The translations under genes and the position numbers were made by a program. The notes under the pieces are model-generated. The model ran no database searches. It was not told where the DNA came from and was given only the letters and a program-made list of their open reading frames with translations. From Lepas anatifera (Eukaryota > Arthropoda > Thecostraca > Lepadidae): DNA of 64,000 bases. The DNA is taken from the NCBI GenBank assembly GCA_034440635.1, contig JAOTON010002229.1, positions 372,001-436,000 of the forward strand, read 5' to 3'. Shown piece after piece: positions 5,272 through 60,876 of this stretch (positions are counted from its first letter, which is position 1; every line of letters begins with the position of its first letter).

Positions 5272-8200
5272 CAGGGGTCTAAAAACTTGCCGATCTACCT
5301 ACGCCGTCGGCGACCCTATCATCTTTTAGTTGGCGACCCAGCAACCGTCTCAAACTCTGATTCCATCTGTTTTCCCATGATTTTAGCTTCCACCATCCGC
5401 TCCTGCTTCTAAATATGCCTACCCTCTCCACTGTCTCCACGCGTCATCGTAATACACACAGTGCCCATAAAAATCTATTGGATGAAGTCTGCCAGTTCCT
5501 TTAGCCAAGAATGGGCAGAATCTACTTCGACAAAGAGCCAAGTTAGCCTTCGTTTCCCGGCTTGTTTGGCGTTTCTGAAAGATAGCTTGGCTACAACGGG
5601 GCATCTTTGGCCGATTACATCTGGCATCATCACCGCCCTTAGTTGCTGCTAGTCTTTGCTAGTTATGTTTCTTCTTATTACAATTTTTGGTTCCAATTTT
5701 ATGAAAAGCGACTGAAATTACCTGGTACCTTAGCTGATGCCATCTCCTTATACCGTATCTATGTATTATTTTTAAGTTCAAACTAGAATGTACTAGAATC
5801 CGTCACGAGTCGGTACCAAGTCGGTGATTTTCATTTTTTCAATAGGCGACCAATGGGAGACCGAGTCGGCCGAAACCGCCGACTTGCGTGGTTGCCTGGT
5901 CGCAGGTGGTCGCCCTGGTACATTTTCGGTGTGTGCGGCCGTCAGAACGAGCGCGGAGTGGGCTGCCGCTAATATTTTTGTATTCTTGTTGGTGGGCGCC
6001 GTTTTTGACGACTGGTGTTCAATTTGTTAAATCCAAGGGGTTAAATCACTACCCTGGTTAAATCAAGATGTGCGTTTATCATAGACGGTCCGTGCAATCT
6101 AGGTGGGTTTTGGAGTCTACTTGCAATGATGTTTCCTTGTTTTGCTTTACCGCGAAAAGTCTCAGAAGGAAAAAAACTTGAATACCAGTGGTGCATGTTT
6201 AAACTCTTTCCAACCACAATCACACTGAAATGTCATCGTAAACATTGTTCTATAGTCACACATTCCCAAGGGCGTGGATATTCTGAACGATTTTTGTGGT
6301 GCCTAATTATGAGACTATCCATTACAAGTATACTATTTTTGATACCACCATGTTCTTGCCTTATAGCTGGACATATAACTGGGTGACCAAGTAGGCCTGT
6401 TATTTAACGATTTTAAAGTCCCTGAAATGAGAAATAGGAAAATTTTTTAGGATGCTCTTAGTAGGCACAGAAATTAACATGAGCTTCCATTTGGGGTGCC
6501 ACAGCAGTGACAGGTCCAAGGGATCCCTGAACTCGAGTTCAGGACCCCGTAAGTTTGAAAGGATTCAGGGCGGCCTGAAGAAAAGGGTACCCCAAAACTG
6601 ATTAAACCAGATCTGCGAGGCAGAAAATACCTTGCTACTGCCCCCACCACTAGAATACAAATGATGGGGCTACAGATGGAGCTTTGAAGTTTAGAAGTTG
6701 TGTAAAATGGCATTAAAGGTGCTGAAAACAGGTTTTGTTATGCTAGGTTGGCTCGCATCATGTTCTGTATGGCCATATGTCTTGGTCTGTATATATTATT
6801 ATCTCAAGTGGCAATATAAATCAAATATTTAAAAACTTTTTGTTGTTTTTTCTAGATATCTATTAATTGATTTTGTATATGACTAGTGTTTTATTTACAC
6901 AGATGCACCAAGACATGTGAATGATCATAATAAACATGTTGAGCTTCAATATTTGAAGCAGGGTATAAAGTATGATTTCCTGTTTCTGTTTGAATGATAA
7001 ATTCCCTCTAAAATTTGAAGAACAGAAATAAGCCAGGTAGAAAGACGAAAAGTTTGTTTCATGGCCCAAAATTTTGTTCTGGAAAATGGTCTCAAGCATT
7101 CCCATAATTGGGAATGGGTGTTCCCATCTATGGGTCAAGCATTCCCATTTATGGCACTGTTACCATTTTTAAGTCACACCAATTACAGTTTTCTCCCACT
7201 GATTGATGACGATAGCCACCCTTTTTGGGTAAAGTGTGCCCTTTTGGTTGACAGGATGCAATCTCAGAGGGCTGCCCCCTACTAAAATCCTAGATCCATC
7301 ACTTTAAATTGGTACCCCATAAGGGATATAAATGTGCATTCCTGCACAGCACAAAGATGTGAAAAACCATTTCCAATTTGCCAGAAGACTCCACTGCAAG
7401 GACAATGGTCCAATCCAAGTCTGCCAAACATAGAATAAGCTGTGTCTTTTGCACAGATGGATGCACACTGGGTGATCAGGGTGTGTGTGTATGTTTTTTA
7501 ACTGATTGATTATATGCATCCAAGTTTCTGATAATATCTTGTATTTTTTGTCACAAGAAAGTTGACTCGTTTTGTTTTCTCTAGCGTGGATGAACTATGG
7601 AAGCACTGCCACAGAGGTACAGTAGAAATATCACAGATTGTGTCCACCACAAAAGAACAGGTTGCTGAAATGCAAACTGTTCTTCTCAGTACCCAATCCT
7701 GGTCCAAATGGGTCATCAGCAACTATTCTGGAAACTTTTTCAGTCCTGATTATTAATGCTAAAATGCATCAATTAAGAGCTTTGGAAATAGTTATCATGG
7801 GAATGATGTCATGCAAAGAAAATAAGGTTATTCCCAAGAGACAGCATTGCTATTGCTTTGAGTAGAACCATGTTCAACAATGGAGCAAAAATTGGGCCTC
7901 ATCTTAGCAATGGTTGATATTTTCCACTGTACTTCTGAAGAAATGTTGCCAATGAATAATGTTTGAATTATTTATTTGAAATGTTACAGGAATTTATCTG
8001 ATTTGTGGCGCCTCAAGGTGAAGAATGACAAGTATTTCATGACGCATGTATGTACATGAAAAATGTTTTTTTCTCTAGTTAAATGAAACATCGGAACTGT
8101 TCCTGAGGCTCTTTTTAAGGTGCTGCAAACCCTTTTATTTGTCTCCAAGATAAGGCCTAACAATTTTTCACATGGATGGACACAAAATAAAACCATTATT

Positions 8201-9384
8201 GATGAGAGAACAACAATGGTGAATCAATCATGGTTGTATCTTGCTTGGTATAGAAGTAATGGGCGAAAATTTTAATGCCCAGGGGTGCTGCCACGGAATT
8301 TTTACAGGGGAACGGACCCGGGCTGGTGCTGGCCGGGGCAGGGGAATTGTGAGCATATTTGGTACCTGACAGCATTATTGACGATGAACCGAAAATTTTG
8401 GGAGATGTCCCCCTGGTTGGCCAACAGGGGGATGCGTAGGTACCCCGTCCCACAGCTTTCGGCGCCCATTTGATTGCCCTTGTGTACGGACAGCGTATCA
8501 TCTTTGACCTCGATTGACCTCCAAACAGACTTAACCTAAGCTCAGTGGGCACTATCGATACGTATTCATGACTGCGTAGTACGTATAAATGACTGATCAC
8601 TATCCAACATTGGCTTTTAGGTCCGACATATCACGCTGAAAGCGAGCGTTCTTCCTATTATAACTTGAAGCTACGTGATAACATCTCCAATATTCAGTGT
8701 CCTGTTGCGCCCTAGCCTTTGACCTGATATGAAAATGGATGTTGCCTTAGTGAAAGAGCTGGTCGGGCTCTGTCGAATAGCGTTGAGAAAGTGGTTCCGG
8801 CTATTTTGCGTACGGAGATAAGCAAGGTTTTATAGAGCACTGCATTTGATACATTTTGACGTATATGAATTTTTCCCCTCTGGTGACCACAGTATTGACC
8901 TTACGCAAAAATTCCAGGAGTAACGCCGATTGCATTTCCGGTGACCTTTCGATCGCTTTTTCCGCTTCTTTCTTTGTTTCCGAGATCGAGGGTGTCATTT
9001 TTAACACCCTCCCACCAGGGGGGGTTCATAGGTGATTCATGCTGGTCACCGGGGCTAGGGTTAAGGGCCAGCATGTATAGTTTTGTTGCTTTCAGATCAT
9101 AACTTTGACTTTAATACTGAATTATAATCTCCATGAAATCACTTAGGTAATGACTTGATTCTGGCTTAGGTCATCGATATCGAGAAACTCGATCTATATT
9201 TTATGGGTTTTTTATATCTATATTTTATTTGAACCATCCCCCTTGCACTCGCCAGTGCTTCCCTATAGCCATATTTATACCACTTTTAAGACCGATTTTG
9301 TAATACATGTAGCATTAGGTTCGGCGACCATCGAAGAAGCTTGGATTTTAGTCGGCGACCACAAGCTCACTTTTTAGACCCCTG
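5272..9384. mobile_element. hAT-superfamily element, about 4.1 kb, no intact transposase
   Basis: It begins CAGGGGTCTAAAAACTTGCC and ends with the inverted TTTTTAGACCCCTG. It is flanked by the exact 8-bp direct repeat CATAAGTC (5264-5271 and 9385-9392), which occurs once at the corresponding place in the uninterrupted A copies. CAGGGG ends with 8-bp duplications define hAT. Several GGCGACC words (often TCGGCGACC) sit near both ends, a plausible subterminal transposase-binding array. No transposase frame is readable. Interior stretches with TTCCCATAATTGGGAA-like words and a GCTGCCCCCTACTAAA segment resemble the hAT at 42955-44959, so the two are probably related. Confidence 0.85.
8801..9064 (-). 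mobile_element. Decayed E-like TTAA element end inside the hAT
   Basis: A TTAA at 9061-9064 bounds a G/C-rich double-motif end. Next to it is a hairpin of GAGGGTGT and ACACCCTC (about 8987-9010), preceded by TTTCCGAGATC, the same words found beside type B and A palindromes. A few TGACC hexamers lie inside. The other end was not located. Confidence 0.45.
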
Positions 9385-10133
9385 CATAAGTCGGAACAGG
9401 ATGAACTTATCCAATTGAAACTCATATCACATAATGGCCCCACCGTGTTCTCTAAAAAAGTTCCGGTATTCTTATGTCGATAACCTAAAGTCGGTACGAG
9501 CCATGACCTCTCCAATGGAAATACATGTGCAAAATGTTTTTTAACTGAATAACTTAGCAACAGATGGTGATAAAGCGTTTATTTTAACTGCATTAGATTT
9601 GCCTTTTCTTTGCGGTTCTAATGATAAGCATTTACCTAATAGACCTGGACCTGTCCTCAGGTCAGGTAAAATCCTTGATTTGACCTAGCAAGGTCATATT
9701 ATATAGCATTCGATTCGGCTTGCTGCGAGGATTCATATGGTTTATTTTTTGTTCTATCTTAACATGTTCAGATGAAATGACCAAAAACCTTCATTTAGAT
9801 GTTATCCCTTTGACGACATGTTTTGACTTGTAGTGACCTTAAATTTGACCGGACAATAACTGAAATGTTTTCAATTGAGAATTAGATGGGTTACCCAACG
9901 CAGTTTTTTTCGCTACTTAGCGTGTTTTTTAGATCTTATGGGGGCGAGTACCCGCCCCGCCCCCTCCCGTCAAGGCGAAGGTGGCTCAGACCCCGTCAAT
10001 GCGCGTGTTAAGGCGGAGATCAAGTTTCGCAAACTGATGCCAACATCTAATACGAAGCATGACATGAACCTATCCATGAATAAGAATCGGTCGAGTGATT
10101 ACAGTATTTTGTAAGCGTACTGGGAATACCCGT

Positions 10134-13061: not shown

Positions 13062-13980
13062 TTAACACCCGCACTGGGGGGGGCTGGCACTAACGCGCAC
13101 TGGAGGGGAGCCTGGTAGGCCCCCTAAGATCTCGGAAACTAAGAGGTTTAGAAAAGCGCCACTTTGCAGGTGGGTGGGGGCTAAAGTTATCTACACGATG
13201 ACCAAATTTTAATTGACCTAGGTCAATATCTTCAAGGTCGAACGAGGTCGTAAATGTCAAATATTGGTCATGCTGGGGACCGATTGGTAAATGCTGTGAT
13301 TATGCGGGAAAATGGCGCGAATAAGTTAAAGGCGGACCAGGTTCATAGAGAAGAGTTCTCAAAGAGGCTTACCCACAATTTTTGGGTCAAGGCCGTTCAA
13401 AGTCATTGACCTTTAAGGTCACCATATGATATAGTACTTATAATGTACACTTTGACTAACACTGTAGCCACTGTTTGGCGGGAAATGAGGATTGACCTTT
13501 CCCAATGACCTTTGACCTTGACCTTTGACCTTGAAATTTGTATTGAGGTACCTATCGATGACGTCATAGCATAATATATGTCAGACCGGGTAACGTCATT
13601 TGGCCGGAAGCACAGTGGTCAGTGACATTGAAAGTGCAGAAATGACCTTGACCTGTGACCTTTGACCCTGACTTTCATGTGAGGTCACTTGGACATTTAG
13701 TCCCGGTTATATGGCGTTACGACGTCACCACTTGGTCTCCAATGCAAGCTAACTGGTCCGACCGCGCGATTACGGCTATCTCAAAATGCAGATCTGACTT
13801 TGAAAGCCGATAAGTAAACAAATGATCAACCGATTTTCAGAAAGTCTTCACCAATCGACGCGCTATCAAATTCTATTTAAACGTGGCCACGTATAGTTTT
13901 TCGGCTACGAGCGGTTCTCCGGCCACCTCGGAAAAACAGGTGGGCTGGGCCTGCGAGGCCCCCTCCAGTTTGCGTGTTAA
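13062..13980 (+). mobile_element. TTAA element type B, copy 1
   Basis: It is bounded by TTAA at 13062-13065 and 13977-13980, 919 bp long. The left end has the terminal motif twice (CCCGCACTGG... and ...GCGCACTGGAGG); the right end has it once. Palindromes GGCCTGGTAGGCC-type and GGCCTGCGAGGCC-type flank the body. The body carries direct and inverted AGGTCA half-sites, many in the extended form TCAAGGTCA. It is non-coding. Confidence 0.85.
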
Positions 13981-15479: not shown

Positions 15480-16488
15480 TTAACACGTGCCCCGCTGGGT
15501 CCCTGGCATGACGCGCCCCGCTGGGGGCGTTTTTCGCCCCCTCCGTATCTCGTTCCCCACCAAAATCAAAGGAAAATTATGGGCGGTGTTCGAAAGCTCT
15601 TGACAAGACGAAGAGATTTTATAAGATAATAAAAATGTTTATTTCAGGTCAATATTGAGGTCAGCATAGGTCAAAGAAGGTTCCATAGGCTTACAATAGA
15701 CCAGGGTACGTTTCTCTCTCTAGATCTGCCCACAGCGGAGTTATAGCAAATCTTTATACATAATTGGATTCCTCTCATCGCAGCAAATGGAAGGATGTAT
15801 AATATGACCTTGCTAGGTCAAATAGTGAAAATGACCTGACCTCAAGCTAGGTCAGGGTCAAAGAGTGACCCGGTATGGTCATGTTGCATATCAATCGACT
15901 CCCATGACAATATAAGCACAATGCAAGCAAAATTTGAGCCTTATCCCAATTCAGTGACAAGTTATTGGCAAAACAATCACTCTATGCTCCCGTGACCTGA
16001 TATGACCTTTGAGAGGTCAGATACTAAAAAACTCAACTTTATGGTCAAGATCTTTGTGAGAATAGACGGTTTGAGGATTTTCAGCTTTATTAATCCAGTA
16101 TTTACGGAAAACGAGCCCATTCTATTTTTTCACCATAGGCTTATAATAGGGTGACCAAAAATTGACCCCACCTTAGGTCAACAAAATCAAAACAAAATTC
16201 GGAGATAGCAGATTTTTAAACCCTAATGGCCTTATCATATTGTGAAAGTTTCAAACTGATCGCTTTGCTGATGTTCCCTGGGCGCCGCTTCAAACTCGTG
16301 ATTTTAGGTTTTGAGGTCGGGTTTCTTGACCTTAAATAGCTCCTTGACCTGACATGACCTTAACCTAAAAATTTTATCAGATGTGTAAAATCAATTAGGT
16401 ATAAGGTACTGTAAGTTTTGTTGTTGTAAGTTTGTTTGTTGGGAGGGGGCGAATTTCGCCCCCCTCCCCACAGCGGGGCGCGTGTTAA
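15480..16488 (+). mobile_element. TTAA element type D
   Basis: It is bounded by TTAA at 15480-15483 and 16485-16488, 1009 bp long. The left end has the terminal motif twice (first TTAACACGTGCCCCGCTGGG, then GCGCCCCGCTGG) followed by the palindrome GGGGGCGTTTTTCGCCCCC. The right end has GGGCGAATTTCGCCC and one motif. The body holds fewer but still many AGGTCA/TGACCT hexamers. It is the only D copy here. Confidence 0.85.
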
Positions 16489-18427: not shown

Positions 18428-20379
18428 TTAACACGCACACTGGAGGGGGCCTCGGAGGCCCCCCACCTGTTTTTCGGAGGTGGCCGGAGAACCGCTTGTA
18501 GCCGAAAAACGAAACGTGGTCACATTTAACAGAATTTAATAGCGCATCGATTGGTGAAGACTTTTTGAAAATCGGCCGAAGTTTTTTGACTCATAGGCTT
18601 TCAAAGTCAGACCTGCATTTTGAGACCGTCGTAAACACGCGGTCGGACCAGTTAGCTTGCATTGAAGACCGAGTGGTGACGTCATAACGTCACATAAGCG
18701 GGACTATATCCCGCGCCCCACCGGGGGTCCGGCGCCACCTTCGCCCCACCGGGGGGCCATCGATGGCCCCCCTCTAACTCCGAAAATATGGGCGTTAGCG
18801 CAAATCTGCAAAGTGCAATAGAAAGCTCGCGTGAATTCAGTACGAAATTACTTCGCATGTTTTAGTGCTCAGGTCAATGGTTTGACCTCCAGAGGTCAAA
18901 TTAGGTCAAGATCGGCTATTTTCACTCAAATATGCAATGATTAAGCAAACTGGGCATAACTCTTATGTCATTAGAGCTATTGAGGCCTGGTAAAGTACAT
19001 TTGATAGCAAATATCCAGTACTTTTTCCGCTATGTGGAACGTAAAGACCTCCCGCCAGTGGTTTGACCGCCAGAGGTCACCTCGTGACCTAATATGACCT
19101 GAGGTCACGAAAGGTCAGAAAGTGACCTTGCCGTATATCAAATGAAAGCCAGTGACAAGACGAACACGATGGTGTTTGTTTCACTGCTCTAGCTCAATTA
19201 GGTCAAAAGTTATTGTCAAAATACTGTTTTTGACCTCTGGTGACCTTTGATGACCTTGGAAAAGTCAAAGGGCAAATATGACCCCTGGGATCCGTGAAAG
19301 GGTGTCCAAAAACGTTGTTCTGAGCAGTCTGAGTATTTGCAATCATTTTTGTGGCTTTTATATCATGAAATAGCTTTTCCCCATGCTTTTCCAATGGGAG
19401 AGGTCGCCTCGTGACCTGACCTCAGGGCACGAAATCGAAAAATGCCGGATATACACCTTGTAGACCCTGGAGGGGTCATGAAGTGTAGGAAGTTTCAAAT
19501 CGATCGACTTTGAAATGTAGCTCTTACAGAGCTCTAAAGGTGAAGTGAGGTGACCTTGGTTGACCTCGTCTGGTGACGTGACCTTGGGTGACCCGGGGTA
19601 AAAAATTTCAGGGATGATGGGAAAATGATGCAGTGAGAGGTAGAGCCCTCAACTACGGTGCTGCGCCTCGTCGTTTTTCTGCTATCCCGGAAAAACCTTA
19701 GGGGGGCCATCGATGGCCCCCCCGGTGGGGCGAGGGATATATCAAGGTCACTTCGTATGAAAGTCAAGGTCAAGGTCAAAGGTCACAGGTCAAGGTCATA
19801 TCTGCACTTTCAAGGTCACTGACCACTGTGCGTCCGGCCAAATGACGTTACCCGGTCTGACATATATTATGCTAGGACGTCATCGGTAGGGTACCCCAAT
19901 ACAAATTTCAAGGTCAAAGGTCAAGGTCAAAAGTCATTGGGAAAGGTCAATCCTCATTTCCCGCCAATCAGTGGCTACAGTGTTAGTCAAAGTGTAAATA
20001 ATAAGTAGTATACCATATGGTGACCTTAAAGGTTAATGACCTTGAATGACCTTGACCCAAAAGTTGTAGGGAAGCCTCTTTGAGACGTCTTCTCTATGAA
20101 CCTTGTCCGCTTTTAGCTTATTCCCGCCATTTTGCCGCATAATCATAGCATTTACCAATCGATCCCCAGCTTGGCCAATATTTGACCTTTACGACCTCGT
20201 TTGACCTTGAAGATATTGACTTAGGTCAATGAAAATCGGTCATCATGTAGATCACCATAGCCCCCACACACCTACCAAGTGGTGTTGTTCTAACCCTCTT
20301 AGTTTCCGAGATCTTAGGGGGCCTACCAGGCCCCCTCCAGTGCGCGTTAGTGCCAGACCCCCTCCAGTGCGGGTGTTAA
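18428..20379 (-). mobile_element. TTAA element type B, copy 2 (split by a C element)
   Basis: It is bounded by TTAA at 18428-18431 and 20376-20379. The single-motif end is on the left and the double-motif end on the right. Subtracting the C element and one ATAT leaves about 921 bp, matching the other complete B copies. Around 19760-19800 there is a dense run of AGGTCA half-sites, including spacings with no gap and with a 1-base gap. Confidence 0.87.
18710..19736 (+). mobile_element. TTAA-class element type C, copy 1, inserted at ATAT
   Basis: It has complete C ends: a double GCGCCCCACCGGGGG-type motif on the left and a single motif on the right, each beside GGGCCATCGATGGCCC. It is flanked by ATAT on both sides (18706-18709, 19737-19740) rather than TTAA. 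The B copy at 30112-31031 shows the equivalent empty site with one ATAT. By hand count it holds about 19 AGGTCA/TGACCT hexamers. It is non-coding. Confidence 0.87.
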
Positions 20380-20392
20380 GGTTAGGTTAAGG

Positions 20393-21427
20393 TTAACCCT
20401 CGCCCCACCGGGGGGCCATCGATGGCCCCCCTAAGGTTTTTCCGGGATAGCAGAAAAACGACGAGGCGCAGCACCGCAGTTGAGGGCTCTACCTCTCACT
20501 GCATCATTTTCCCATCATCCCTGAAATTTTTTACCCCGGGTCACCCAAGGCCAGGTCACCAGACGAGGTCAACCAAGGTCACCTCACTTCACTTTAGAGC
20601 TCTGTAAGAGCTACATTTCAAAGTCGATCAATTTGAAACTTCCTACACTTCATAACTCCTCCAGGGTCTACAAGGTGTATATCCGGGATTTTTTCGATTT
20701 CGTGCCCTGAGGTCAGGGCACGAGGCGACCTCTCCCATTGGAAAAGCATGGGAAAAAGTTGTCTCATGATCTAAAAGTCACAAAAATGATTGCAAATGCT
20801 CAGACTGCTCAGAACAGCGTTTTTTGACACCCTTTTACGGATCCCGGGGGTCATATTTGCCCTTTGACTTTTCCAAGGTCATCCAAGGTCACCAGGGGTC
20901 AAAAACAGTATTTTGACAATACCTTTTGACCTAATAAAGCTAAAGCGCTGAAACAAACACCATCGTGTTTGTCTTGTCACTGGCTTTCATTTGATATACG
21001 GCAAGGTCACTTTCTGACCTTTCGTGACCTCAGGTCATATTAGGTCACGAGGTGACCTCTGGAGGTCAAACCACTGGCGGGAGGTCTTTACGTTCCACAT
21101 AGCGGAAAAAGTACTGGCAATTTGCTATCAAATGTACTTTACCAGGCTTCAATAGCTCTAATGACATAAGAGTTATGCCCAGTTTGCTTAATCATTGCAT
21201 ATTTGAGTGAAAATAGCCGATCTTGACCTAATTTGACCTCTGGAGGTCAAACCATTGACCTGAGCACTAAAACATGCGAAGTAATTTCTTACTGAATTCA
21301 CGCAAGCTTTCTATTGCACTTTGCAGATTTGCGCTAACGCCCATATTGTCGGAGTTAGAGGGGGGGCCATCGATGGCCCCCCGGTGGGGCGAAGGTGGCG
21401 CCGGACCCCCGGTGGGGCGCGGGTTAA
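20393..21427 (-). mobile_element. TTAA element type C, copy 2
   Basis: It is bounded by TTAA at 20393-20396 and 21424-21427, 1035 bp long, in inverted orientation to copy 1 and nearly identical to it. The single-motif end (TTAACCCTCGCCCCACCGGG) is on the left. It starts 13 bp after the end of B copy 2. Confidence 0.88.
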
Positions 21428-21540
21428 GGTATTATGGGCTGAGATTAGACAGAGTCTATTTGAGTGCCCACTTCATGGTAAGGACGTGTTAGGACAAGAT
21501 ATGTTTGTCTAGCCTTGCTTTGCTGTCTCTTGATCAGGTA

Positions 21541-23355: not shown

Positions 23356-25207
23356 TTAACCCTCGCTCCACAGGGGGCCATCGATGGCCCCCTAAGGTTT
23401 TTTTAGGGATAGCAGGACAACGACGAGGCGCAGCTCTGTGGTTCGGAGCTCTATCTTTCACCCCATTATTTTCCCATCATCCCTTAAGTTTTTACCCCGG
23501 GTCACTCAAGGTCAGGTCACCAGATGAGGTCAACCAAGGTCACCTCACTTAAACTTTCGAGCTCTATAAGAGATACATTTCTTAGTCGATTAATTTGAAA
23601 CTTCCTGCACTTAATGACCTCTCCAAGGTCTATACAATGTATATTCGGTATTTTTAGATTCTGTGACCTGAGGTCAGGTCACGAGGTGACCTTTCCCATT
23701 GAAAAAGCATGGGGAGAAGTTGTCTTATGATCTAAAGTTCACAAAAAAATGATTGCAAATGCAAAGCGTAATCAGAAAGCGTTCTTTGACACCCTTTTAC
23801 GGATCCCAGGGGCCATATTTTCCCTTTGATCTCTTCAAGGTCATCCAAGGCCACCAGGGGTAAAAACAGTATTTGGACAATAACGTTTGACCTAATTAAG
23901 CTAGAGCGCTGAGTGAAACACCATCGTGTATGTCTTGTCACTGGCTTTCATCTGATATACGGCAAGGTCACTTTCTGATCTTTAATGACCTTAGGTCATA
24001 TTAGGTCATGAGGTGACCTCTGGAGGTCAAACCACTGCCCGAAGGTCATGACGTTCCACATAGTGAAAAAATGTCTGCCAATTTCCTATCAAATGTACTT
24101 TAACAGATCTCAATATCTCTAATTGCATAAGAGTTATGCCCTGTTTGCTTAATCATTGCATTTTTGAGTGAAAATAGCCTATCGTGACCTAATTTGTCCT
24201 CTGGAGGTCAAATAATTGACCTGAGCTCTTAACACACGGATTGACGAGGGTCTGAGCCACCTTCGCTTTGACGAGGGGGCGGGTACCCGCCCCCTAAGAT
24301 CTCGAGAACTACGGTAGGTAGCGAAAAACGGTAAACGGCGTTGGGTAGCCCATCCACTTGTCCATCAAAAATATTTGAACCATTTTTTTTTCAGGTCATA
24401 TTTAAGGTCACGAGAGGTCAAAACATGGCATCATAGGGATCACATGTAAATTACTGTTTTCGGTCATTACATCTGAACAATATAGAGCAAAACGACTTGA
24501 ATTATATGAATGCTCGCAGCAAGCCGAATCAAATAATATATAATTTAATCATACTAGGTCAAATTAAGGATTTGACATGACCTGATGTCAGGTCAGGGTC
24601 AAATTATATAAATGCATATCATTAGAACCGCAAAGACAAGGCAAGTCTAATGCACCTAAAATAAACGCTCTACCACCATTCGTTTTTTAGTTATTCAGCA
24701 AAAACCATTTTCCCATGTATTTCCAACGGAGAGATCACGCCTCGTACCTGACCTTAGGTCATTGATATAAAAAATACCGGAACATATTTTAGAGAACTCG
24801 GTGGGGCCATTATGTGACATGAGTTTCAATCGGATAAGTTCATTCTGCTCCGACTTACGCTATCTTAAACTTTTTTTGAGGTAAGGTCACTTGACCTGTA
24901 CTGGTGACCTGACCTGAGGTGATCTAGCCTTCAAATGTTCACAGAAGTTGTAAAATGAAGAGGAAAAAGGTATGCCAAGTACGGCGGCGCTACGCGCTCT
25001 CCTTCCGGAAAACCCGAGGGGGCGGGTACCCAACCCCCGTCAATGCGCGTGTTGAACATGCCAAGTAATTTCATACTGAGTTCACGCGAGCTTTCTAATG
25101 CACTTTGCAGATTTTCGCTAACCCCCCATATTGTCGGAGTTAGAGGGGGCCATCGATGCCCTCGGTTGGGCGAAGGTGGCGCCGGATTCCCGGTGGGGCG
25201 CAGGTTA
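23356..25207 (-). mobile_element. TTAA element type C, copy 3 (split by an A element)
   Basis: It is bounded by TTAA at 23356-23359 and 25204-25207. The single-motif end is on the left. Without the A insertion it is about 1025 bp. It is more diverged from the C consensus than copies 1, 2 and 5, consistent with greater age. Confidence 0.83.
24229..25055 (+). mobile_element. TTAA element type A, copy 2
   Basis: It has TTAA on the left (24229-24232) and TTGA on the right (25052-25055), a one-base decay of the duplication. The double-motif end is on the left. It is 827 bp, rich in TGACCT/AGGTCA. Confidence 0.85.
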
Positions 25208-25955
25208 AGTGCCTTGGCGCTTCTACGCCAATCGGGGATCCTCTGACTTACTTGTTTTGTGCAATGCTAGAAAATAAATTCATTTATGTATGTATGACAT
25301 GTCAAAGCCATCCCACAGGAATGTCAAAGTCAAGGTCAAAACTCACAACTTAAGGTCATACCAGTATTTTCAAGTTCATTGGTCCCAATCACATGGCGTT
25401 GCCAAGGATGACATTTATAATACTATGACGCCAAATTTAAGGTAACTTAGTGTAAAGTTCGGAATCGAAGATCAAGATAAAAGGTCATGGCTCCAGATCA
25501 ATCCTCAGTTTCCGTTCAACATGTGTTATAACGTTTGTTATAGTGTATGCATGTACATATGCATACATACATTATTGGGAGTACACCGTATCGTGACCTC
25601 AAAATTCAATGACCTTGAATGACCTTGAACTCAAACTTTCAGGCAAAATTTTTAGAGGCGCACCCTCAATGAACTTGGCCCGTTTATAGTATATTCATGA
25701 ATTTGTGCATAATTACGGCATTTCCCAATATTAAGCTTCCCAGCACAGTCAAGATTTGATATTCATGATTCAGTTTGGCCTTAAAATATTGACCTAGGTC
25801 AATGAAAGTTGGTTACAATGTAAATCGTTATACTCTCCACATAACCCCAAACGTAAATTTGTCTAGGTCTCTTAGTTGTTTAGACCTTAGGGAGACCAGA
25901 GACCAAACCTTCGTTCTAGTGCGCGTTAGTGTGAGACCCCTCTCCAGTGCAGGTA

Positions 25956-26751
25956 TGAACACGCGCATTCAGGTACCCGCCCCCTCGGATTTTTTCAGGT
26001 AGCACAAAAACGGCGGCGCGTAGCGCCGCTGTACTTGGCATACCTTTTCCCTGATTATTTTTTTACAATTTTTGTTAAAATTTTAAGGTCAGGTCATCTC
26101 AGGTCATGTCACCAGTACAGTTCAAGTGACCTGACCTAAAGAAGTTTAGGATAGCATAATTCAGAGTAGGATGAACTTATCCAATTAAAAGGTGTATCAC
26201 TTAATAGGCCCACCGAGATCTCTAAAATATTTTCCGGTATTTTTTATATCGATGTCCTAAGGTCAGGTACGAGGCATGACCTCTTCATAGAACACACCTG
26301 GGAAACATGGCTTTAACTGAATAAATTATTAATGGATGGTGTTCGAACCTTTATTGTAACTGCATTAGATTTGCCGTGTTCTTGCGGTTCTAATGATATG
26401 CATTTTTCCTAATTTGACCTTGACCTGACCTCAGGTCAGGTCAAATATCATATTTGGCATATCAAGGTCATATCATACATCATTCGATTCGGCTTGCCGT
26501 GAGGATTCGAAGGGTTTAAATTGCTTTTTATCTTGACTTGTTCAGATGTAATGACCGAAAACCTTCATTTACATGCTATCACTAACATGGCATGTATTGA
26601 CCTCTAGTGACCTCAAATGTGATCTGAAAAATTAAATATTTGTGATAAAGAAGTGGATGGTCTACCCAACGTGGTTTGCCGTTTTTCACTATCTAGTGTG
26701 GTTTTCGAGATCTTAGGGGCGGGTACCCGCCCCTGTCAATGCGCGTGTTAA
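25956..26751 (-). mobile_element. TTAA element type A, copy 3 (one end shortened)
   Basis: It abuts B copy 4, sharing the TGAA at 25956-25959, and ends at TTAA 26748-26751, which is also the start of the next element. By body orientation the right end should carry two motifs but has only one, so the spacer and one motif were lost, possibly by recombination between the two motif copies. Confidence 0.8.
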
Positions 26752-29372: not shown

Positions 29373-31530
29373 ATGCTGTGCTTGATAAATGCAAGTATAT
29401 CGATATATGTCCCGCGCCGCTCATGTGACTCTAATTTGGCAACTCTTCTAAAAACGGCGTGGGACTCTATCTCTTCCGGCCATCAAACTGACATAATCTA
29501 CACTGACTACTCTGCGACCTTTCAGAGCGTGAATCATAAACTCTTACTCTATAAGCTTCAATGATGTTATAACGTGTCTGGAAAAGCGCTGTCCTGGCTT
29601 AAATAATTCCTTTGCTCGAGAAAACAACGGGTTGTCGTAAACGGAAAGTGCTCTCATTCGACGGATGAAGGCTCTGGAATACCGGAAGGCAGTCAAATAT
29701 CTCCTTTGCTCTTTGCCTTGTTCATTAATGATCTGCCAAACGAAACTCAAACAAATTCTTTGCTATTTGCTGACGATGTGAAGCTTTACCACCAAATTCA
29801 TACTACCGAAGACTCAGAACTGCTCCAGGCTGATCTAGATAGATTGGCTAAGTGGTCCGAATCCTGGAAGCTAAATCTGAATCCCTCAAAATGTCATTCG
29901 TTTAGAATCACTTTAAAAAGGAACCCCATCCCGGCAATCTACAAAATTCGAAACACACCTCTGGAGCACATGGACAAAGTTCGCGACCTCGGCATTTGGT
30001 TAGATTCCAAATAGAACTTTTCAGAGCATATAAACATCATCGTCAGCAAGGCAAACAAGATGTTGGGTCTGTTAATGCGCTCTCTTCAGAATGGCCGAGG
30101 TGGTGGAAGACTTAACACGCGCACTGGAGGGGGCCTCGGAGGCCCCCACCAGTTTTTCCAACGTGGCTGGAGAACCGCTCGTAGCCGAAACACGATACTT
30201 TGCCACATTAAACATAATTTATTAGCGCGTCGATTGGTGAAGATTTTTTGAAAATCGGTCGAAAATTGTTTGACTTATAGGCTTTTAAAGTCAGACCTGC
30301 ATTTTGAGATCGCCGTCATCGCGTGGTCGGACCAGTTAGCTTGCATTGGAGACCGAGTGGTGAAGACATAACACCATATAACCGGGATTATATGTCTAGG
30401 TCACCTCACATGAAGGTCAAGGTCAAGGCCAAAGGTCACATGTCCAGGTCATATCTGCACTTTCAAGGTCACTGACCACAGTGCTTCCGGTCAAATGACG
30501 TTACCCGGTCTGACGTACGTTATGCTATGACTTCATCGATAAGGCACCCCAATACTAAGGTCAAGGTCAAAGGGTAAGGTCAAAGGTCATTTGCAAAGGT
30601 CAATCCTCATTGCCCACCAAACAGTGGCCATAGTGTTAGTAAAAGTGTACATTATAAGTAATATACCATATTGTGACCTTACAGGTTAATGACCTTGAAT
30701 GACCTTGACCCAAAAATTGAATGGAAGGCTCTTTGAGACCTTCTCTATATGACCCTGGTCCGCCTCTAGCTTATTCCCGCCATTTTCCCGCATAACCACG
30801 GCATTTACCGGTCGGTCCCCAGATGGCCAAGTTTTGACCTTTATGACCTCGTTTGACCTTGAAGATATTGACCTAGGTCAATAAACATTTGGCATGATGT
30901 AGATCACTATAACTCCCACCCACCTCTTAAATTTAGTTTTTCTATGCCTCTTAGTTTCCGAGATCTTAGGGGGCCTACCAGGCCCCCTCCAGTGCGCGTT
31001 AGTGCCAGACCCCCTCCAGTGCGGGTGTTAAGGAAGGACCAATTTTGGCTGTATATTTTGGCAATGTTTGATCAATTCTGGAATATGGATGTGTCATCTG
31101 GGGCGAAGCTGCAAGATGTCATTTGGACAGATTAGACAGGGTTCAACATAAATTTTAATTTGGCTCGCAGCCAACATTCACACATCACAACCATCTCAGT
31201 CCTTGTCATACCATGATCTCTTAAAGCTCTTCAAAATTAGCAGTCTGTCCCAGAGAAGACTCCAGTACGACATTTGCTTCGTACTCAAAATCATAACCGG
31301 GAAGGTGGACTCCGCCTGTCTGCTCGGGAGCTTCCCACTCCATATACCTCAGCGGCGAACCAGGGGGATGCAAAGCCACATTTTACATACATGTTTCCCT
31401 GCCTCGTGTGGAGACCGTCAAAAGAGGCTTATTTCGCAGGGCAGCGATTGCTTTTAACGGCCATCTTAGACGCTGTCCCGAGGCAGACCCCTAGGCTTCG
31501 ACCTTTAGTAGTTTTAGAGCCAGGGTGAGA
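29373..31530 (+). pseudogene. LINE reverse transcriptase remnant, interrupted by a B element
   Basis: Recognisable parts in order: VPRRSCDSNL and DIIYTDYSATFQSVNHK (region of catalytic motif A, with TF replacing the usual AFD) at about 29405-29550; SLLFADDVKLY with the catalytic FADD at 29766-29777; LRWLDS-like region to 30015; then, after the B insertion, LEYGCVIWG and LDRLDRVQHKF (about 31076-31155) and PLHIPQRRTRG (about 31337-31370). Stops occur after 29562, at 30013 and just after the insertion point, so the gene is dead. The upstream polymerase motifs and endonuclease are missing. Removing the B element and one TTAA lets the same frame run across the junction. Confidence 0.83.
30112..31031 (-). 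mobile_element. TTAA element type B, copy 3
   Basis: It is bounded by TTAA at 30112-30115 and 31028-31031, 920 bp long. The single-motif end is on the left, the double-motif end on the right. By hand count it holds about 19 AGGTCA/TGACCT hexamers. It is inserted in the LINE reverse transcriptase remnant and provides the empty-site reference for B copies 2 and 4. Confidence 0.9.
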
Positions 31531-31828: not shown

Positions 31829-34800
31829 GCACAATTACATCATGAAAATAAGGGCCTTAATATCATTCATGTTAATATTCGCTCCTTGTAGAATAATTAT
31901 AACTCTCTTGTTCTGTTGCTCAATCAACTAAATGTGAAGCCTGATATTATTCTAGTGTCTTAAACCTGGTTAGACCCTTCACTTACATCATCATATCAGA
32001 TCGACAACTACCGACTTGAAACTTCAAACCAGAGTGGGTCTAGAGGTAAGGGAGCAGCAATTTATATTTCCAATGACATTCCATATACTAGGCGAAATGC
32101 TCTTGAGCTGAGCAACGCCCATTTTCAATCTGTTTTGATTAAAATTCGGCCAAGAAAGTCCAGAAATGCAATCATTGGTTCGCTTTACCGCTCTCTATCT
32201 CATATCAACCCCTTAAATTCATTGAATATTTCGAAAACCTTTTTGAAGAAATAGGCAGGGAGCCAAAACATGCCATACTAGGGGGCGATTACAACATCGA
32301 TCTACTAAAATTCGACACATCTGAAAGCAGCGCCCAATTTTTCAATATGGTATCCGCAGCCGGCTGTTTTCCATGCATATCCCTCCCTACTAGAATAGCA
32401 GCAACTTCCAATACCCTGATCAACAACTTTATTAGTAATGACCTATACATCATCACCCAGAACAACCTCTGCTGTCCGATATCAGTGATCATTTGCCGAT
32501 TTCAATTACTGTTAATATAAACTACACCAATCTAATTAAAAAACTCCAAACTAGCAACCTGTTTGACTTTAGGAAACCAGATTCCCTGAAGCAAAACCTT
32601 ATTCCGAAACTAGCACAAGTATATGCGATCGATGGTGCGGAGGCAGCTGCAGCCTTCCTAATAAACACAATTAAAGAAGAATTATCTAAGTTAACTATAA
32701 AAAACAATAGGGAAAAAGTGCCGATCCAGCCATGGATATCGTACAATATTCTAAGCTGCATCAATCAGAAAAATAAACTATACAAAATATCAATTCATAA
32801 CCCTACTGTTGAAAATGGAACTAAGTTTAAACAGTATCGCAACGTTCTCAATAGCGTGATCCGAAGTGCAAAAAAGACTACTTCAAAAGAAAAATAGAAG
32901 AATTCAGAGGTAATCCTCAAAGACTATGGCAGATTCTTCTTGGCCTTACTCGCAAAAATAAGCAAAGACCTCCACCCCCTGACACATTTAAAGCTGGGGA
33001 TGCAACCTTTCATGACCCTTCTGCTATAGCGAATACCTTTAACAATTTTTTTTGCCACAATTGGCTCTACCTTAGACGCAAAGCTACCCTGTGCCTCCAC
33101 AGATCCTATGCATACTCTGCACAACCTTCATCAGCCTGTTGAATCCTTCGAATTCCAATAAGTAAATACTCTTACTATAGCCAACACAATTAAGGACTTG
33201 TTAAACACTGGTGGGGGAGAAGACAGACTTAGTTATAAAATCCTTAAAACAATTTCTGAAATTATCTCTCCAATTCTAGCTTTTATTTTCAACAAATGCA
33301 CAATTCAAGGAATTTTCCCCTCCTTCTTAAAACATGCAGTGATCATACCAGTATTAAAATCTGGGGATCCATCAAATTTCAATAACTATAGACCGATTGC
33401 CCTTTTGAGTACTATCTCAAAAGTATTCGAAAAAAATTGTTTATTATCAGATGGTTAATTTTCTAAATTGGCACAACATTTTGTACTACTATCAATTTCG
33501 GTTCAGGAGAAAGCACAGATAGCTTCATGCCGATCGCTCTTCTTTACGATCTGATAACCTCTTCTCTTGCAAATAAAAAAGTTTGTGCAACAATTACCTG
33601 GATCTTTCGAAGGCTTTTGACACTTTAAATAATGGAATTCTGCATCAAAAAGCTACATTTTATGGCTTTCACGACTTGTCCAATGATTTCCTGTCATCCT
33701 ATCTTCAAAACATTACACAGACAGTGAAATTCAACAATACCTGTTCACAAAATCATCTCACACTTAGAACGGGTGTATCACAGGGATCTGTTCTTGGGCC
33801 CCTTCTATTTCTCCTTTATATTAATGATATACATCTCAGCTTGCAAACCCCTAAATTTTTACTTTTCGCTGATGATACTGCTCTCGTATATACAGCTGAC
33901 AATATTGACCAACTACAAAGTATAACTACAAATAGCCTACCAGAAGTGTATAATTGGCTGGTGGGAAATCGTCTCACGCTGAACGCTAATAAATCTGTCT
34001 ACCAGGTATACCATTACTCTGAACCTGCCTCTCAGATTCAGATTTCAAATAATAATACCATCATACAAAGATGTTTTAGTGCTAAATATTTCGGGATAAC
34101 TATTGACGAGGATTTTAAGTGGAAATCTCATAAAGAAACACAGAACACACGATCGCCCGTAACATTGGGCTTATAAACCGTATCAAATATATTCTGGATT
34201 CAAGATGCATCCTCATGCTCTATAGTTCACTTATACTCCCATATCTTAATTACTGCTCCGAACTCTGGGGAGTAGTGTATTCCTCTCGGCTGACTAGACT
34301 TATAATTCTCCAAAAGAAGATGGTGAGAATAATTGCTAAGATCGGCGTTCGTGATCACACATCGAATATTTTTAAGGAATTAAAAATTCTGAAACTTCAG
34401 GATCTTGTTAAACATTTGCTCTTCCTCATCCTCCACTCACACCTTGCAAATACTCTCCCCCTCCTCTAACTGAAAAATTTACAATCACCTAATCAAATCA
34501 TGACAGAGTCATGAGAACCGGAAATCACTTTACGATTCCATTCGCTCCCACTAATTATCGCAATTTCTCACTCTTCTTAGCTGCTCCAATCACCTGGAAT
34601 GATATAATCGTCCCAAATATACGGTCTCTAGATGACGTTTCTGTCTCTTGATTGTTTTTCAAGACTGTTCCTAAGCGTATATTTTTAGACACAAATTGGA
34701 ATTATTGTCCCGGACAAATTTGCTACAATATTTGCTTCATCGCATCTCACCATTCCTATCGCCCGTAGATTCTACAATAAGATTTAAGGCCGCCAACGAC

Positions 34801-34877: not shown

Positions 34878-35719
34878 TTAACACGCGCATTGACGGGGGT
34901 CTGAGCCACCTTCGCATTGACGGGGGCGGGTTCCCGCCCCTAAGATCTCGAGAACCACGGTAGGTAGCGAAAAACGGTAAACGGTGTTGGGCTGCCCATC
35001 CACTTCTCCATCGAAAACATTTGAACCATTTTTTTGTCAGGTCACATTTAAGGTCACGAGAGGTCAAAACATGCCCGTCATAGGGATAACATGTAAAATT
35101 AAGTTTTTCGGGCATTACATCTGAACAAGTAAAGATAGAGCAAAACGACTTGAACTATATGAATCCTCTTAGCAAGCCGAATCGAATGATATATAATTTG
35201 ACCTTTCTAGGTCAAATCAAGGATTTGACCTGACCTAAGGTCAGGTCAGGGTCAAATTAAATAAAATGCATATCATTAGAACTGGAAAGCCCAGGCGAGT
35301 TTAATGCAGCTAAATTAAATGCTCTATCACCATCGGTTACTGAGTTATTCCTTAAAAACCATTTTTCCCATGTATTTCCAATGTAGAGGTCATGCCTCGT
35401 ACCTGAACTTAGGTCATCGATATCACAAATACCGGAACATATTTTAGAGAACTCGGTGCGGCCATTATGTGATATGAGTTTCAATCGGATAAATTCACCC
35501 TGCTCTGACTTATGCTATCTTAAACTTTTTTTGAGGTCGGGTCACTTGACCTGTACTGGTGACCTGACCTGAGATGACCTAACCTTAAAATTTTCACAGA
35601 AGTTGTAAAAATGATGAGGGAAAAGGTATACCAAGTACTGTGGCGCTACGCGCCGCCGTTTTTCTATTATCTCCGAAAACCCGAGGGGGCGGGTCCGCCC
35701 CCGTCAATGCGCGTGTTAA
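34878..35719 (+). mobile_element. TTAA element type A, copy 4
   Basis: It is bounded by TTAA at 34878-34881 and 35716-35719, 842 bp long. The double-motif end (TTAACACGCGCATTGACGGG, spacer with CTGAGCCACCTTCGC, second motif) is on the left. The right palindrome has lost part of its centre (GGGTCCGCCC). Confidence 0.88.
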
Positions 35720-36546
35720 TATAGTAAATAGTCTTATGTTTTGACTTCAATATGTGCACAGACAAGCAGGATGCACTTCAAGCTCTGCTTCTTGCCCCTC
35801 CTTGTCTTAATTGTTATCAGCTATATCAAGGACTAATTCCTAATATGAAGACGGTGCCAACAGAAATATCAATGCACTCCAACCTCAACTAGCCTAGGAT
35901 TGTACTCGCTGTCCATCGAATCTACTGGCCCTGGTGGCGCTGACTCGCTGTCGACATGCCTACCACTCCATCATAGCGCTGATAGGTGGCGCCACGTCTG
36001 TGGTAGGCCACCCAAGCAGTGGCATGAGTTGCCCTTGAGGTCAACCGGTAGGGAAATCTGGGAGAACATGGAGCAAGTGTTTCAACCAAGAGTAGTGCTT
36101 CTAGGAAGAGAAGGAACAGAAGATCCTCTGCCTCTTTATCAACTCACTCCACAACACAGAGAAGCAAAACGAGTATTCTCTCATAGACTTTCTCTCCATC
36201 ACTGGGCGCAGGTCTCGAAAGCTCGACATGTTGTCTCGATCCAGCATCAAAGGCAGGCTCTCCAGCCCAGACTTCTTGTCCTCCAGAGCTCAGCTACCAG
36301 ATGCTACAGGTTTACAGCTGGTTATACCAGTAGTGGAAGCACTGAGGCAGTGGGATGCACAAACTGGCTCTTTTTTCGGATAATTGCATTGTCAAAAAGT
36401 GTTTGCATGGATACAATATAGGTCAGGGTTACTATACTAAGGCAAACATCTGCGGCTAAAATCGTGTGAGAACTGTCTTATTAATTTCCTGTCTTGCCTT
36501 GTAGCGAGCTCCGTCCTCAAATGTTTCAAGCTCTTTAACGGAACTG
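35720..36546. other. Unassigned interval with an uncharacterised 173-codon frame
   Basis: A frame at 35900-36421 (+) is open for 173 codons and resembles no family I know. The composition is mixed and there is no clear start context or splice sites, so it is probably fortuitous. No other feature was seen. Confidence 0.35.
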
Positions 36547-37617
<1,071 letters not shown>

Positions 37618-38192: not shown

Positions 38193-39241
38193 GGATGTCC
38201 ACCACAGCAGATGTGCCGGACGTCTGGTGGTAGCGGCGCATACCAAACATGCTCCTCTCCGCTGGACCATCTCTGCCTGGTCAATGTGATGTTGGGTATA
38301 AGGGTCCGACACCGTGCATCTTTCTCTAGAATGGGACGAACGTCCGATTTGTAGGCCAGCTCCTTGATAGTCTTGGAGCTTATCTTTAAGTTTCTTCTGA
38401 TGTTTGTGCGTGCGTCAGCTATCTGTCAACCTGAATATCCCGCTGAATACGTCTATGAACCTACTTTGTGGTGGGGCCATGGGGACGGGACTAAGTTTCA
38501 ATAGGTAGATTAGGTAATGCATTACTAAAACTGCATGAAGATAGCCAGTGGGGGTGGGTACAGACAACTAACATAACTTGTACTAATTGACTTTGGAATC
38601 ATACTAGGAAAATCTCTTGGAATGGCTGTGCGGGAAAGGATGGGCCCTCCTTCCTGCTTATATAAATGGGCGGTGGGTAAAAAAATATCCGCGTGTGCCC
38701 TTGGGAAGCCAGAAAGCCCGCAAATGACATTTTCCATCTCTGCTCAGAGTGGACATGTTCCACCAGCCATTTTCAGGTGCCGGCCGGCGCTGGTGCTGTG
38801 TGGCTGCTTACCCGAGAGATTTTGAAAACCGGCTGCTACCATTAGACTCACATTACCAAACGTCCGCGACTGAGTGTCTCGCATCTGGGGTCCCAGTCTT
38901 CGCGGTACCTCCGAGATAACGCCTTTCTCCAGGCTTATAACTGAATTCCTGTGGAGAAAAGTAGCTACCATCAAGCATTAGCGCAACTGATTCTGAAGGC
39001 GTCACTGAGTTTAGTAAAAGTGAGTGTATGAAGGTAAGTGTTATTCTTTATTTTCTCTTGAGATCCAGCAATGGACTCTTGACCGTGGGGGGATGGGGAT
39101 TAGGAAGCAGCTCCTAATATTTTTGGCTACTTATGAAATATTAACGAAGATGCACTTCATTAATGCATTTATGTAGGTAGATTAACGCAGAGAAGTGAGA
39201 AAATGAAAAATAAAAATTAAATCTAGGTTCAAAATCTTCAA
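38193..39241. other. Unassigned interval
   Basis: No gene or repeat terminus was recognised. Confidence 0.45.
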
Positions 39242-40132
39242 CCATATATGCCGGTTGGGTCATAAATGACCCAAAAATATTCAGCAACTGTTCCTTCTTA
39301 CAGAAGTACCATAAAGTGGTTCAGCACGTGAAAATGTACTTTACGGCAACAATTGGACACTTTGCCGTCAAAATAGACCGTAAACACGATCACTGAACTT
39401 GCCAGCTTCGCTCAGAGCGTCTTTACAGGAGCGGGTGTTGTCGGCTCGGATTTCTGTCATAGCGCGGAGAGATAAGAGGCAAGCTAACTTATGTTTAACA
39501 TTCATTTATAGTTACTGTTTCTTATTATTTATCCTTCTGAATTATTGTTCTTGCCGTTGATGCTTTCATAATAAGGTCAATAGAGGTGCAATGCGCTTAT
39601 TTTTTGAAGTTTAATCTGTCTGGGTCATAAATGACCCACTCGGCAAATGTGTGCACGCTGTGATGAAGAATTGTGATTTTGTTCCAACGTTGCCGTTCGT
39701 TTGTAATGACTTAAGTATTGCAACCACTATGTATCACACGTAGTTACATACACATATGATCATTGGTAGATATAGGAGCACCTTTTGGAGGGGCCAGGCC
39801 AACGTTTTAGGGGCTAAATCGAAAAAAATCGCAAAAACATGGTATTTGAAAGAAAAACGGTCAAAATTGGGGGTTTTAGGGCCCCAACACATACCATTTC
39901 AGGCTTTGGTTGGCCCCCCCCCTGAATCCGCCTTTTGAGTTTAATTTTGTTTTCTCTGCTTCAGAGTGACTGCTAATGACACTGGACATCCTTGAAGCGG
40001 AGGGTCGGGATGAAACCGAGGACGGAATAACTATGTATCTTTCAACCATCCGAAAATCCATGTGCAAAGTCAGGCGCTGATTCAGATGAAAGTGACGCAC
40101 CAAAGGGTATGTCACATCACTTACCTAGACAT

Positions 40133-40331
40133 AGGCGGATCCAGAAGGGGGCAAAGGGGGTAGGTGCTCCATCGACCCTCGGCGCCCCCTGAAAGGTCAA
40201 TGGCGCCCATGATGCGAAAATCGGCGCCTACCGATAGGACTTGACTGATAGGCGCCCACCTGATAGGTTTTGCCGGCCAAAGGTGGCACCCCCCGGAAAG
40301 GTGCCCCCATTGGTATCCTGAATCTGCCTAT
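40133..40331. mobile_element. Short element with GGCGGAT ends, about 200 bp
   Basis: It starts TAGGCGGATCCAGAAGGG and ends CTGAATCTGCCTA. The inverted match continues outward over CCTAGACA / TGTTTCTAGG. It is non-coding, with GGCGCC words inside, and lies in the 5' part of the piggyBac relic. A further GAATCCGCC terminus occurs at about 39925-39936. Confidence 0.55.
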
Positions 40332-40367
40332 GTTTCTAGGCTTATCCTGGCGCCTGAAGTTGAGCTG

Positions 40368-41911: not shown

Positions 41912-42363
41912 AATGTTAGATCAACTCAACAGGTCACCAAAATTCATCAACCACAAAGCATAAGGAAAGCAGCAAAACAGCGAGAGGTTTGCGGTGTGAC
42001 GCTCGTTTCCGTGCGCAACAGTGAATGGTGGAAGTGCTGGTGTCAGTGGGTGTTTTTTTGTAAAGAAATCCTACATTGCTGATCGTTACAGATTTAAAAC
42101 ATACGGCATGTTTCACAGTGCCGATTAGTATCAACTAGAGGCAGAGAATCAGCAGAGAAATTGTGCCGCCGTCGTAATCCGTTCCTTGACTTTTTGACTA
42201 CCTTTCTGCCAGTTGGGTCATTTATGACCCGGATGCACAATGGGCTTCCTTTGGGCAGAATGTCTTATATTTTTGGTTTTCTCATTATTTTTGCCCATCT
42301 AAACTTCCCCTAGACGGAGAAGACATAGCTCGAAAAGGAAAAAGTCCGGTGTATATGGGTTAA

Positions 42364-44959: not shown

Positions 44960-45121
44960 CCGGGGGCCATCGGTGGCCCCCTCTAACTCTGGTAAAGATC
45001 TGGTAAAATACATTTGATAGTAAAATTTTAGACATTTTCCCGCTATGTTGAACATAATGACCTCCCGCCAGTGGTTTGACCTCCAGAGGTCACCTCTTGA
45101 CCTAATATTACCTGAGGTCAC

Positions 45122-60732: not shown

Positions 60733-60876
60733 GTTTATTCCTTCCTGAATCGATACCAGCTTCAGCTTTGGCAACATTTCATCCTCACGTTATCCGATAT
60801 ATTCTCAAACAATGTTGGTAATATTCTAAATTTTATGGCCCCCGCGGGACTTTTCGCCGGCGAGCAGAGTGTAAAG

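Follow-up and report, generated by a model that had tools for sequence, protein, structure and literature searches.

AGGTCA arrays as a probably selected part of a clade of piggyBac-type transposons in Lepas anatifera

Results

Repeated elements and AGGTCA words in the window

The window analyzed here, a 64,000-nucleotide stretch of the Lepas anatifera genome (assembly GCA_034440635.1, contig JAOTON010002229.1, positions 372,001 to 436,000), contains copies of four repeat families, A to D. Their copies are bounded by TTAA; inside it lie inverted repeats rich in GC and a palindrome of the form GGGGG..CCCCC. Consensus lengths are 845 bp for A, 920 bp for B and about 1,033 bp for C, and D is represented by one window copy.

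8196–9064, plus strand: fragment akin to family F of L019 (65–78% identity)
9384–10010, minus strand: A1, family A, partial
13062–13980, minus strand: B1, family B
15480–16488, plus strand: D1, family D, 15 hexamers, homologous to A and C
18428–20379, plus strand: B2, family B, split by C1
18707–19739, plus strand: C1, family C, 19 hexamers, nested in B2
20393–21428, minus strand: C2, family C, TTAA at both ends
23356–25230 (right edge approximate), minus strand: C3, family C, split by A2
24229–25056, plus strand: A2, family A, nested in C3
25319–25968, plus strand: B5, family B, diverged partial copy
25954–26746, minus strand: A3, family A
30112–31031, plus strand: B3, family B, 19 hexamers
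34878–35719, plus strand: A4, family A
39237–42363 (ends by eye), plus strand: piggyBac-like relic hosting A5
40701–41544, plus strand: A5, family A, 16 hexamers, at a TTAA within the relic
44960–46773 (left edge approximate), plus strand: C5, family C, split by C4
45122–46153, minus strand: C4, family C, nested in C5
50479–52160 (right edge approximate), minus strand: A6, family A, split by A7
51102–51932, plus strand: A7, family A, nested in A6
53142–54159, plus strand: C6, family C
55850–56688, minus strand: A8, family A
60146–61350, strand not assigned: B4, family B, two diverged pieces

The relic matches PF13843 at 41597–41911 (5e-9) and contains GGGTCA..TGACCC palindromes (GGGTCATAAATGACCC / GGGTCATTTATGACCC) at 39257, 39622 and 42215; GGGTCATAAATGACCC starts 17 bp inside its decayed left tip, as judged by eye. 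Elsewhere in the window lie about 1.07 kb of almost pure (TG)n repeat (36545–37613) and two reverse transcriptase (RVT_1) fragments, at 29607–30014 (5e-14) and 33577–34176 (6e-16).

Nuclear receptors classically recognize AGGTCA as their half-site, and the words counted here fall within the form RGKTCA. An earlier note on this DNA had reported half-sites packed into element bodies, and its hand counts of 19 (18710–19736), 19 (30112–31031) and 16 (40701–41544) proved exact. The window holds 336 AGGTCA/TGACCT in all, 54 of them at 18428–21427, and the excess in element bodies is real: repeat blocks delimited by blast self-comparison (16,911 bp) hold 281 words and the other 47,089 bp hold 55, for 15 of which family D accounts. 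When block edges were later widened by hand, taking in D and other fragments, the blocks (20,257 bp) held 322 words against 10.0 expected under a first-order Markov model, and the 43,743 bp outside held 14 against 22.2, a figure that is biased low, and a split that favors the claim, because the edges were drawn after the word positions were known. The most enriched one-off word was GGGTCA (37 versus 11.7).

Across the window's own genome (1.044 Gb in 2,126 contigs), we counted 8,058 occurrences of the 16-mer TCAAGGTCAAAGGTCA and three of its reversed control. We also analyzed 200 kb of genome picked by presence of a B-type 16-mer (loci L009–L028). Here, 740 words lay within A–D matches (45,158 bp), and the remaining 154,842 bp held 170 against about 76 expected at 2/4096 per base. 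Eight word clusters outside the A–D matches include two further families, E (L016) and F (L019), each a single copy in this analysis.

The element bodies had been described as unrelated, a view that consensus blastn overturns. A, C and D are homologous (A–C, E=1e-37, 68.5% over 337 bp; A–D, E=8e-27; C–D, E=1e-11), and A and B have common terminal sequence, with about 100 terminal bp similar in inverted order (E=2e-10). Family F aligns with A, C, D and B, and E aligns weakly.

The elements belong with piggyBac, and transposase-bearing relatives carry arrays

Among the ends listed (the six commonest four-base ends per side), 47 of the 57 left ends and 53 of the 68 right ends in A–D carried TTAA. 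Six of seven families (all but F) have a GC-flanked palindrome starting 44–46 from one tip, and six of seven (all but E) have one starting 18–26 from the other tip, in both cases counting the TTAA; in A and C the tip segment is repeated at the inner-palindrome end. The terminal palindrome is family-specific, yet within A, C and L031 the two ends carry an identical one; its halves, and both ends of these elements, look as if they had changed together.

A genome search gave at least 120 piggyBac-type transposase matches, and 16 loci were fetched. One of these, L031, is a 4,274-bp element whose tips have 18 identical bases, TTAA included, and whose 711-codon open frame matches T. ni piggyBac (6x67, E=3e-70) and piggyBat (6e-26). 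The PF13843 core was detected in L031 (2e-64) and in L043, inside an A element (4e-40). Given the TTAA, the layout of the ends and the transposase in L031 and L043, we file families A–F and L031, as judged from sequence, under the piggyBac superfamily. Kolobok also leaves TTAA and was rejected, as the transposase within the A element is of the PF13843 type. The piggyBat inverted repeat starts CAC, and for this reason we did not treat departures from a CC[C/T]T start as excluding. F and the left end of E begin CC[C/T]T, a tip rule given in an excerpt of PMC2872659; C and L031 begin CCCG, and A, B and D begin CAC.

In L043, A 1–194 (88%) and A 228–813 (84%) flank a piggyBac transposase with an interrupted frame that is 45–49% identical to that of L031, and 12 of the 16 A hexamers are intact. 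As parts of A lie on either side of this transposase, A copies are internal deletions of a piggyBac element of the L043 type, which bears a transposase, and the arrays predate the deletion, standing on both sides of the gene. L031 itself has one word inside the frame and, downstream of it, ten more that are all oriented inward from that end; its 5′ kilobase has no AGGTCA array, placing the array 3′ of the gene. Eight more loci belong to the L031 family, and the full 3′ region is present in six of the nine, L031 included, with 8–11 words each; L035 has part of it, L036 and L038 none, and L044 is a further copy with 8 words in its 3′ region. The L031 5′ end matches ends of F (2e-14), A (3e-13), D (8e-7) and C (0.002), and the other end of D matches the L031 3′ end (4e-5; 3e-4 with words masked).

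Both transposase families examined in the clade, L031 and L043, carry AGGTCA arrays. In four bounded elements from other piggyBac clades, 22–27% identical and with ends set by best inverted-repeat match, we counted 6 words in 12,470 bp versus 6.1 expected; L033 (3 words in 4.4 kb) was omitted from these controls, as its ends could not be located. None of the 16 loci fetched from the at least 120 PF13843 matches was a transposase-bearing relative of B–F. What this analysis adds is that the window elements are piggyBac-type non-autonomous copies whose transposase-bearing relatives carry arrays too.

Known systems offer partial parallels. As in T. ni piggyBac and piggyBat, described in passages of PMC7351741 and PMC11707139, there are TTAA flanks, a piggyBac-type transposase and a palindrome that lies near one tip and deeper at the other end, with a repeated tip segment. 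In T. ni piggyBac, according to the same passages, cysteine-rich domains bind a palindrome at bp 17–33 of the left end (PMC7351741), the right end has an insertion and sequence duplication (PMC7351741; also PMC11707139), and 35- and 63-bp ends are enough for certain activities (PMC7351741). Those passages contain no hexamer array, whereas the arrays here run from about 165 bp inside. Coral CMITEs, in an excerpt of PMC2872659, are likewise TTAA non-autonomous elements linked to piggyBac-like transposons, whose interior varies less between families than their inverted repeats do, but they measure about 100 bp with a single conserved 75-bp region, in contrast to spaced one-word clusters in 0.8–1.5-kb bodies. 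Dispersed non-autonomous copies from an internally deleted piggyBac are also known as MER85/PGBD3; in the excerpted part of PMC3459987, the CSB-PGBD3 fusion of a transposase meets host transcription-factor sites by means of a host protein domain that tethers it to AP-1 sites elsewhere, whereas here a host-type word lies inside the element. A scan of IMG/VR for the A tip returned 0 matches. Among the papers listed in literature searches, no such arrays appeared in titles or abstract openings, a scope that a paper on piggyBac and AGGTCA could have escaped.

Words are arranged in clusters, the first at a fixed distance from one tip

For cluster positions, families were oriented with the inner-palindrome end first. 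First clusters are centered at 178 (L031), 178 (A), 184 (C), 180 (D), 190 (F), 174 (B) and 186 bp (E), thus 174–190 bp from the same tip in seven of seven families. In the same order, second clusters are centered at 347, 346, 395, 350, 350, 344 and 384 bp, and third clusters at 502, 524, 522, 527, 556, 450 and 548 bp. From the other tip, the nearest clusters lie at 160 (A), 172 (C), 146 (D), 170 (F), 178 (E) and 323 bp (B). Clusters are evenly spaced in A and D (CV 0.039 and 0.022) and unevenly in B and C (0.184 and 0.194). Pooled phase concentration reached 0.60 at a period of 188, compared with a maximum of 0.576 in 1,000 independent rotations, in a test whose families are not independent because most have common descent; best periods of single families ranged from 139 to 188.

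Of 121 words, 84 are oriented inward (13 of 25 in family E), and the commonest pair spacing in the pooled A–D consensuses is 10 bp (15 pairs). Pair types are mixed: DR4 is commonest, DR0 and DR1 occur in B only, and overlapping pairs are found as well. Of the forms that the earlier note had described, the inverted and everted arrangements are present, while two others hold for B and fail elsewhere: the extended form TCAAGGTCA (10 of 21 B consensus sites versus 0 of 16 in A, 0 of 19 in C and 0 of 15 in D) and one-base-spaced direct repeats (four, all in B). The words could have been kept as stems of DNA or RNA secondary structure, an idea to which the near-palindromic second cluster of A lends something (88.9% inverted self-match over 36 bp), but B clusters and the L031 array are mostly runs in one orientation and one aligned site has opposite orientations in A and in C; we give it hardly any credence.

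Hexamers are preserved above the bases around them

In the A/C/D alignment, hexamer bases are 74–100% identical and other body bases 48–56%; pairwise, 9–12 of 15–19 hexamers are fully intact versus 3–6% of free windows. Adding F gave 0.72–1.00 for hexamer bases versus 0.48–0.65 for others. Invariant A–C–D columns number 77 of 125 within the motif versus 177 of 518 elsewhere. Because common words attract an aligner, we masked them before realignment. Eight of 16 hexamers then coincided exactly between A and D (rotation null maximum 3), and between A and C three of 16 did so, rising to seven when an offset of up to 2 bp was allowed (null maximum 6). For C–D, five of 19 were exact (null maximum 4), with a weak result within 2 bp (0.0495). 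A–B gave no exact coincidence and six within 2 bp, in mixed orientation, and masked B–D alignment yielded no coincident words. An alignment artifact was rejected as the cause of coincidence, since A–C and A–D survive masking, as does C–D for exact matches.

Within families, hexamers are also more often intact than random CpG-free windows (A 0.758 versus 0.621, B 0.558 versus 0.408, C 0.877 versus 0.710) and, in larger sets of copies, than windows containing CA/TG (A 0.746 versus 0.584, B 0.687 versus 0.548, C 0.854 versus 0.723; 17 A, 21 B and 13 C copies). For CpG decay, columns with CG in any copy were dropped and TG/CA sites split from the rest; the advantage persisted in B, in C and at the TG/CA sites of A, and decay was rejected as its cause. 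At A sites outside TG/CA the advantage is near nil (0.056 versus 0.062), and one B site is intact in just 0.14 of copies. In six L031-type copies, word positions are slightly less changed than others (0.017 versus 0.023). The hexamers thus stand above neighboring bases among copies, both between families and within A, B and C, and outlast near-saturated bodies, in line with the retention by selection that the earlier note had suggested. We consider it very probable, from these sequence comparisons, that one piggyBac clade carries its AGGTCA arrays as a selected subterminal component that acts in cis.

The same comparisons bear on two other accounts of persistence. In one, words persist neutrally by descent from an old word-rich or duplicated sequence. 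Family E (L016:756–2306; 25 hexamers in 1,551 bp) is built of tandem units of about 163 bp, 72–75% alike with one cluster per unit, and direct internal repeats surround the clusters of B, both of which would suit such a legacy. The greater persistence of hexamers than of neighboring bases, between and within families, argues against it, and so do the motif-masked units. These gave no score above 3 in A and weak ones in D (two scores, z 3.4 and 3.8), and a tandem origin of A or of D was rejected; large B and C unit scores were discarded because they equal the overlap of the cut windows. With TRF showing just short local arrays and masked A and D units sharing little, the suggestion that the bodies grew from an AGGTCA tandem repeat also finds no support, and we regard a neutral legacy as quite improbable.

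In the other account, selection acts on the host, which keeps single copies as receptor-controlled regulatory elements. The array word is present in thousands of genome copies, the host has receptor genes, and Alu repeats are a precedent for receptor-site spread, as excerpts of PMC1785376 (DR2) and PMC3252374 (HNF4alpha sites) describe. Alu DR2 sites arose mostly via CpG deamination (PMC1785376); here, unlike in Alu, dense sites are kept between families and in transposase-bearing elements. Nested and broken copies are common, and selection on host copies fails to explain the pattern, given the preservation between family ancestors and in elements with a transposase. We judge this account very improbable.

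A candidate reader of the array

Cut-and-paste transposons are usually described as a transposase and its tips. Here a host-type word is kept in coding and non-coding members, across families whose other bases are near saturation, so that a dependence of transposition on a host DNA-binding protein could be tested directly, using a single transposase and a single transposon end. The host genome contains zf-C4 genes (45 exon matches). We tentatively propose, as a reading with slightly less than an even chance of being right, that the array serves mobility and that its candidate reader is a host nuclear receptor of constant specificity. The words lie outside minimal ends and remain constant while transposase and terminal palindrome change between families, which points to a reader of stable specificity. 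The resemblance to a receptor site carries less weight than it might seem to, since it was the familiarity of the word that led to the choice of this finding.

In the mechanism we envisage, the transposase would read the tips and the GC-flanked terminal palindromes, much as the core and cysteine-rich domains of the T. ni piggyBac transposase read its ends (a passage of PMC7351741), and a separate protein of constant specificity would occupy the hexamers. The receptor would be present where the element moves, in the germ line or early embryo, and might open or mark chromatin at intervals near one nucleosome repeat, aiding excision, end pairing or access of the transposase. Loss of hexamers would then mean fewer descendant copies, and even non-coding copies would retain them.

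Several observations count against this proposal. Flanks in A, C and D lack a receptor-type extension beyond the six bases, and no single receptor spacing predominates. The L031 5′ kilobase is without an array, the words of B miss those of D and match those of A loosely, A hexamers are barely favored outside TG/CA, the cluster ladder is irregular in B and C, and the L031-type copies show little difference at word positions.

The clade's own transposase could instead bind AGGTCA, with arrays as extra subterminal sites helping to pair the ends. Subterminal repeats in other eukaryotic transposons are thought to help end pairing and are usually ascribed to the transposase. Tol2, Tag1 and Ac, which PMC11707139 names, similarly repeat a short motif inside their terminal inverted repeats, in arrays usually ascribed to transposase binding; here the motif is a receptor half-site. 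Occurrence of arrays in both families of the clade examined, at chance level in the four bounded elements of other clades, would suit a transposase reader, as would the inward orientation of most words and the fixed distance of first clusters from one tip. The relic's GGGTCATAAATGACCC lies at a place matching the T. ni cysteine-rich-domain site (bp 17–33; PMC7351741, in the passage on that site), which suggests that a piggyBac zinc domain may read GGTCA. However, the palindrome at that place in L031 and A–D has no GGTCA and varies between families while AGGTCA is constant, clusters start about 165 bp inside, past minimal piggyBac ends, and the L031 5′ end has no array. Searched against Pfam at E≤1, the L031 protein matched nothing besides DDE_Tnp_1_7, and thus no additional DNA-binding domain. 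A cysteine pattern that might mark a C-terminal cysteine-rich domain is visible in L031 and L043, but the last 68 amino acids of L031 had no PDB match and a second stretch of the L031 match was not significant. We see a transposase reader as a serious possibility, though probably not the right one.

A host nuclear receptor, if it is the reader, would explain the arrival of thousands of receptor half-site clusters in a 1-Gb genome, with possible effects on hormone-controlled gene regulation. The fullest version of this proposal, which we consider unlikely as a whole, is that a host nuclear receptor is a permanently required cofactor for the mobility of a piggyBac lineage. This lineage would have kept a half-site ladder with about one cluster every 175 bp from one tip, close to a nucleosome repeat, while its transposase diverged to 45–49% identity, and its non-coding offspring would have spread thousands of receptor-site clusters through the genome.

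Nesting of copies

Insertion of elements into one another extends beyond the window: in L001, which overlaps L002 and L003, a B copy lies within an A copy. At A consensus 173–176 (about 40873–40876 in the window) a TTAA is fused to a hexamer, TTAAGGTCA. This fusion is the insertion point of B in L001, so that arrays may also provide nesting targets. TTAA is the canonical target of the group; C1, in B2, is flanked by copies of ATAT (18705–18712 and 19735–19743).
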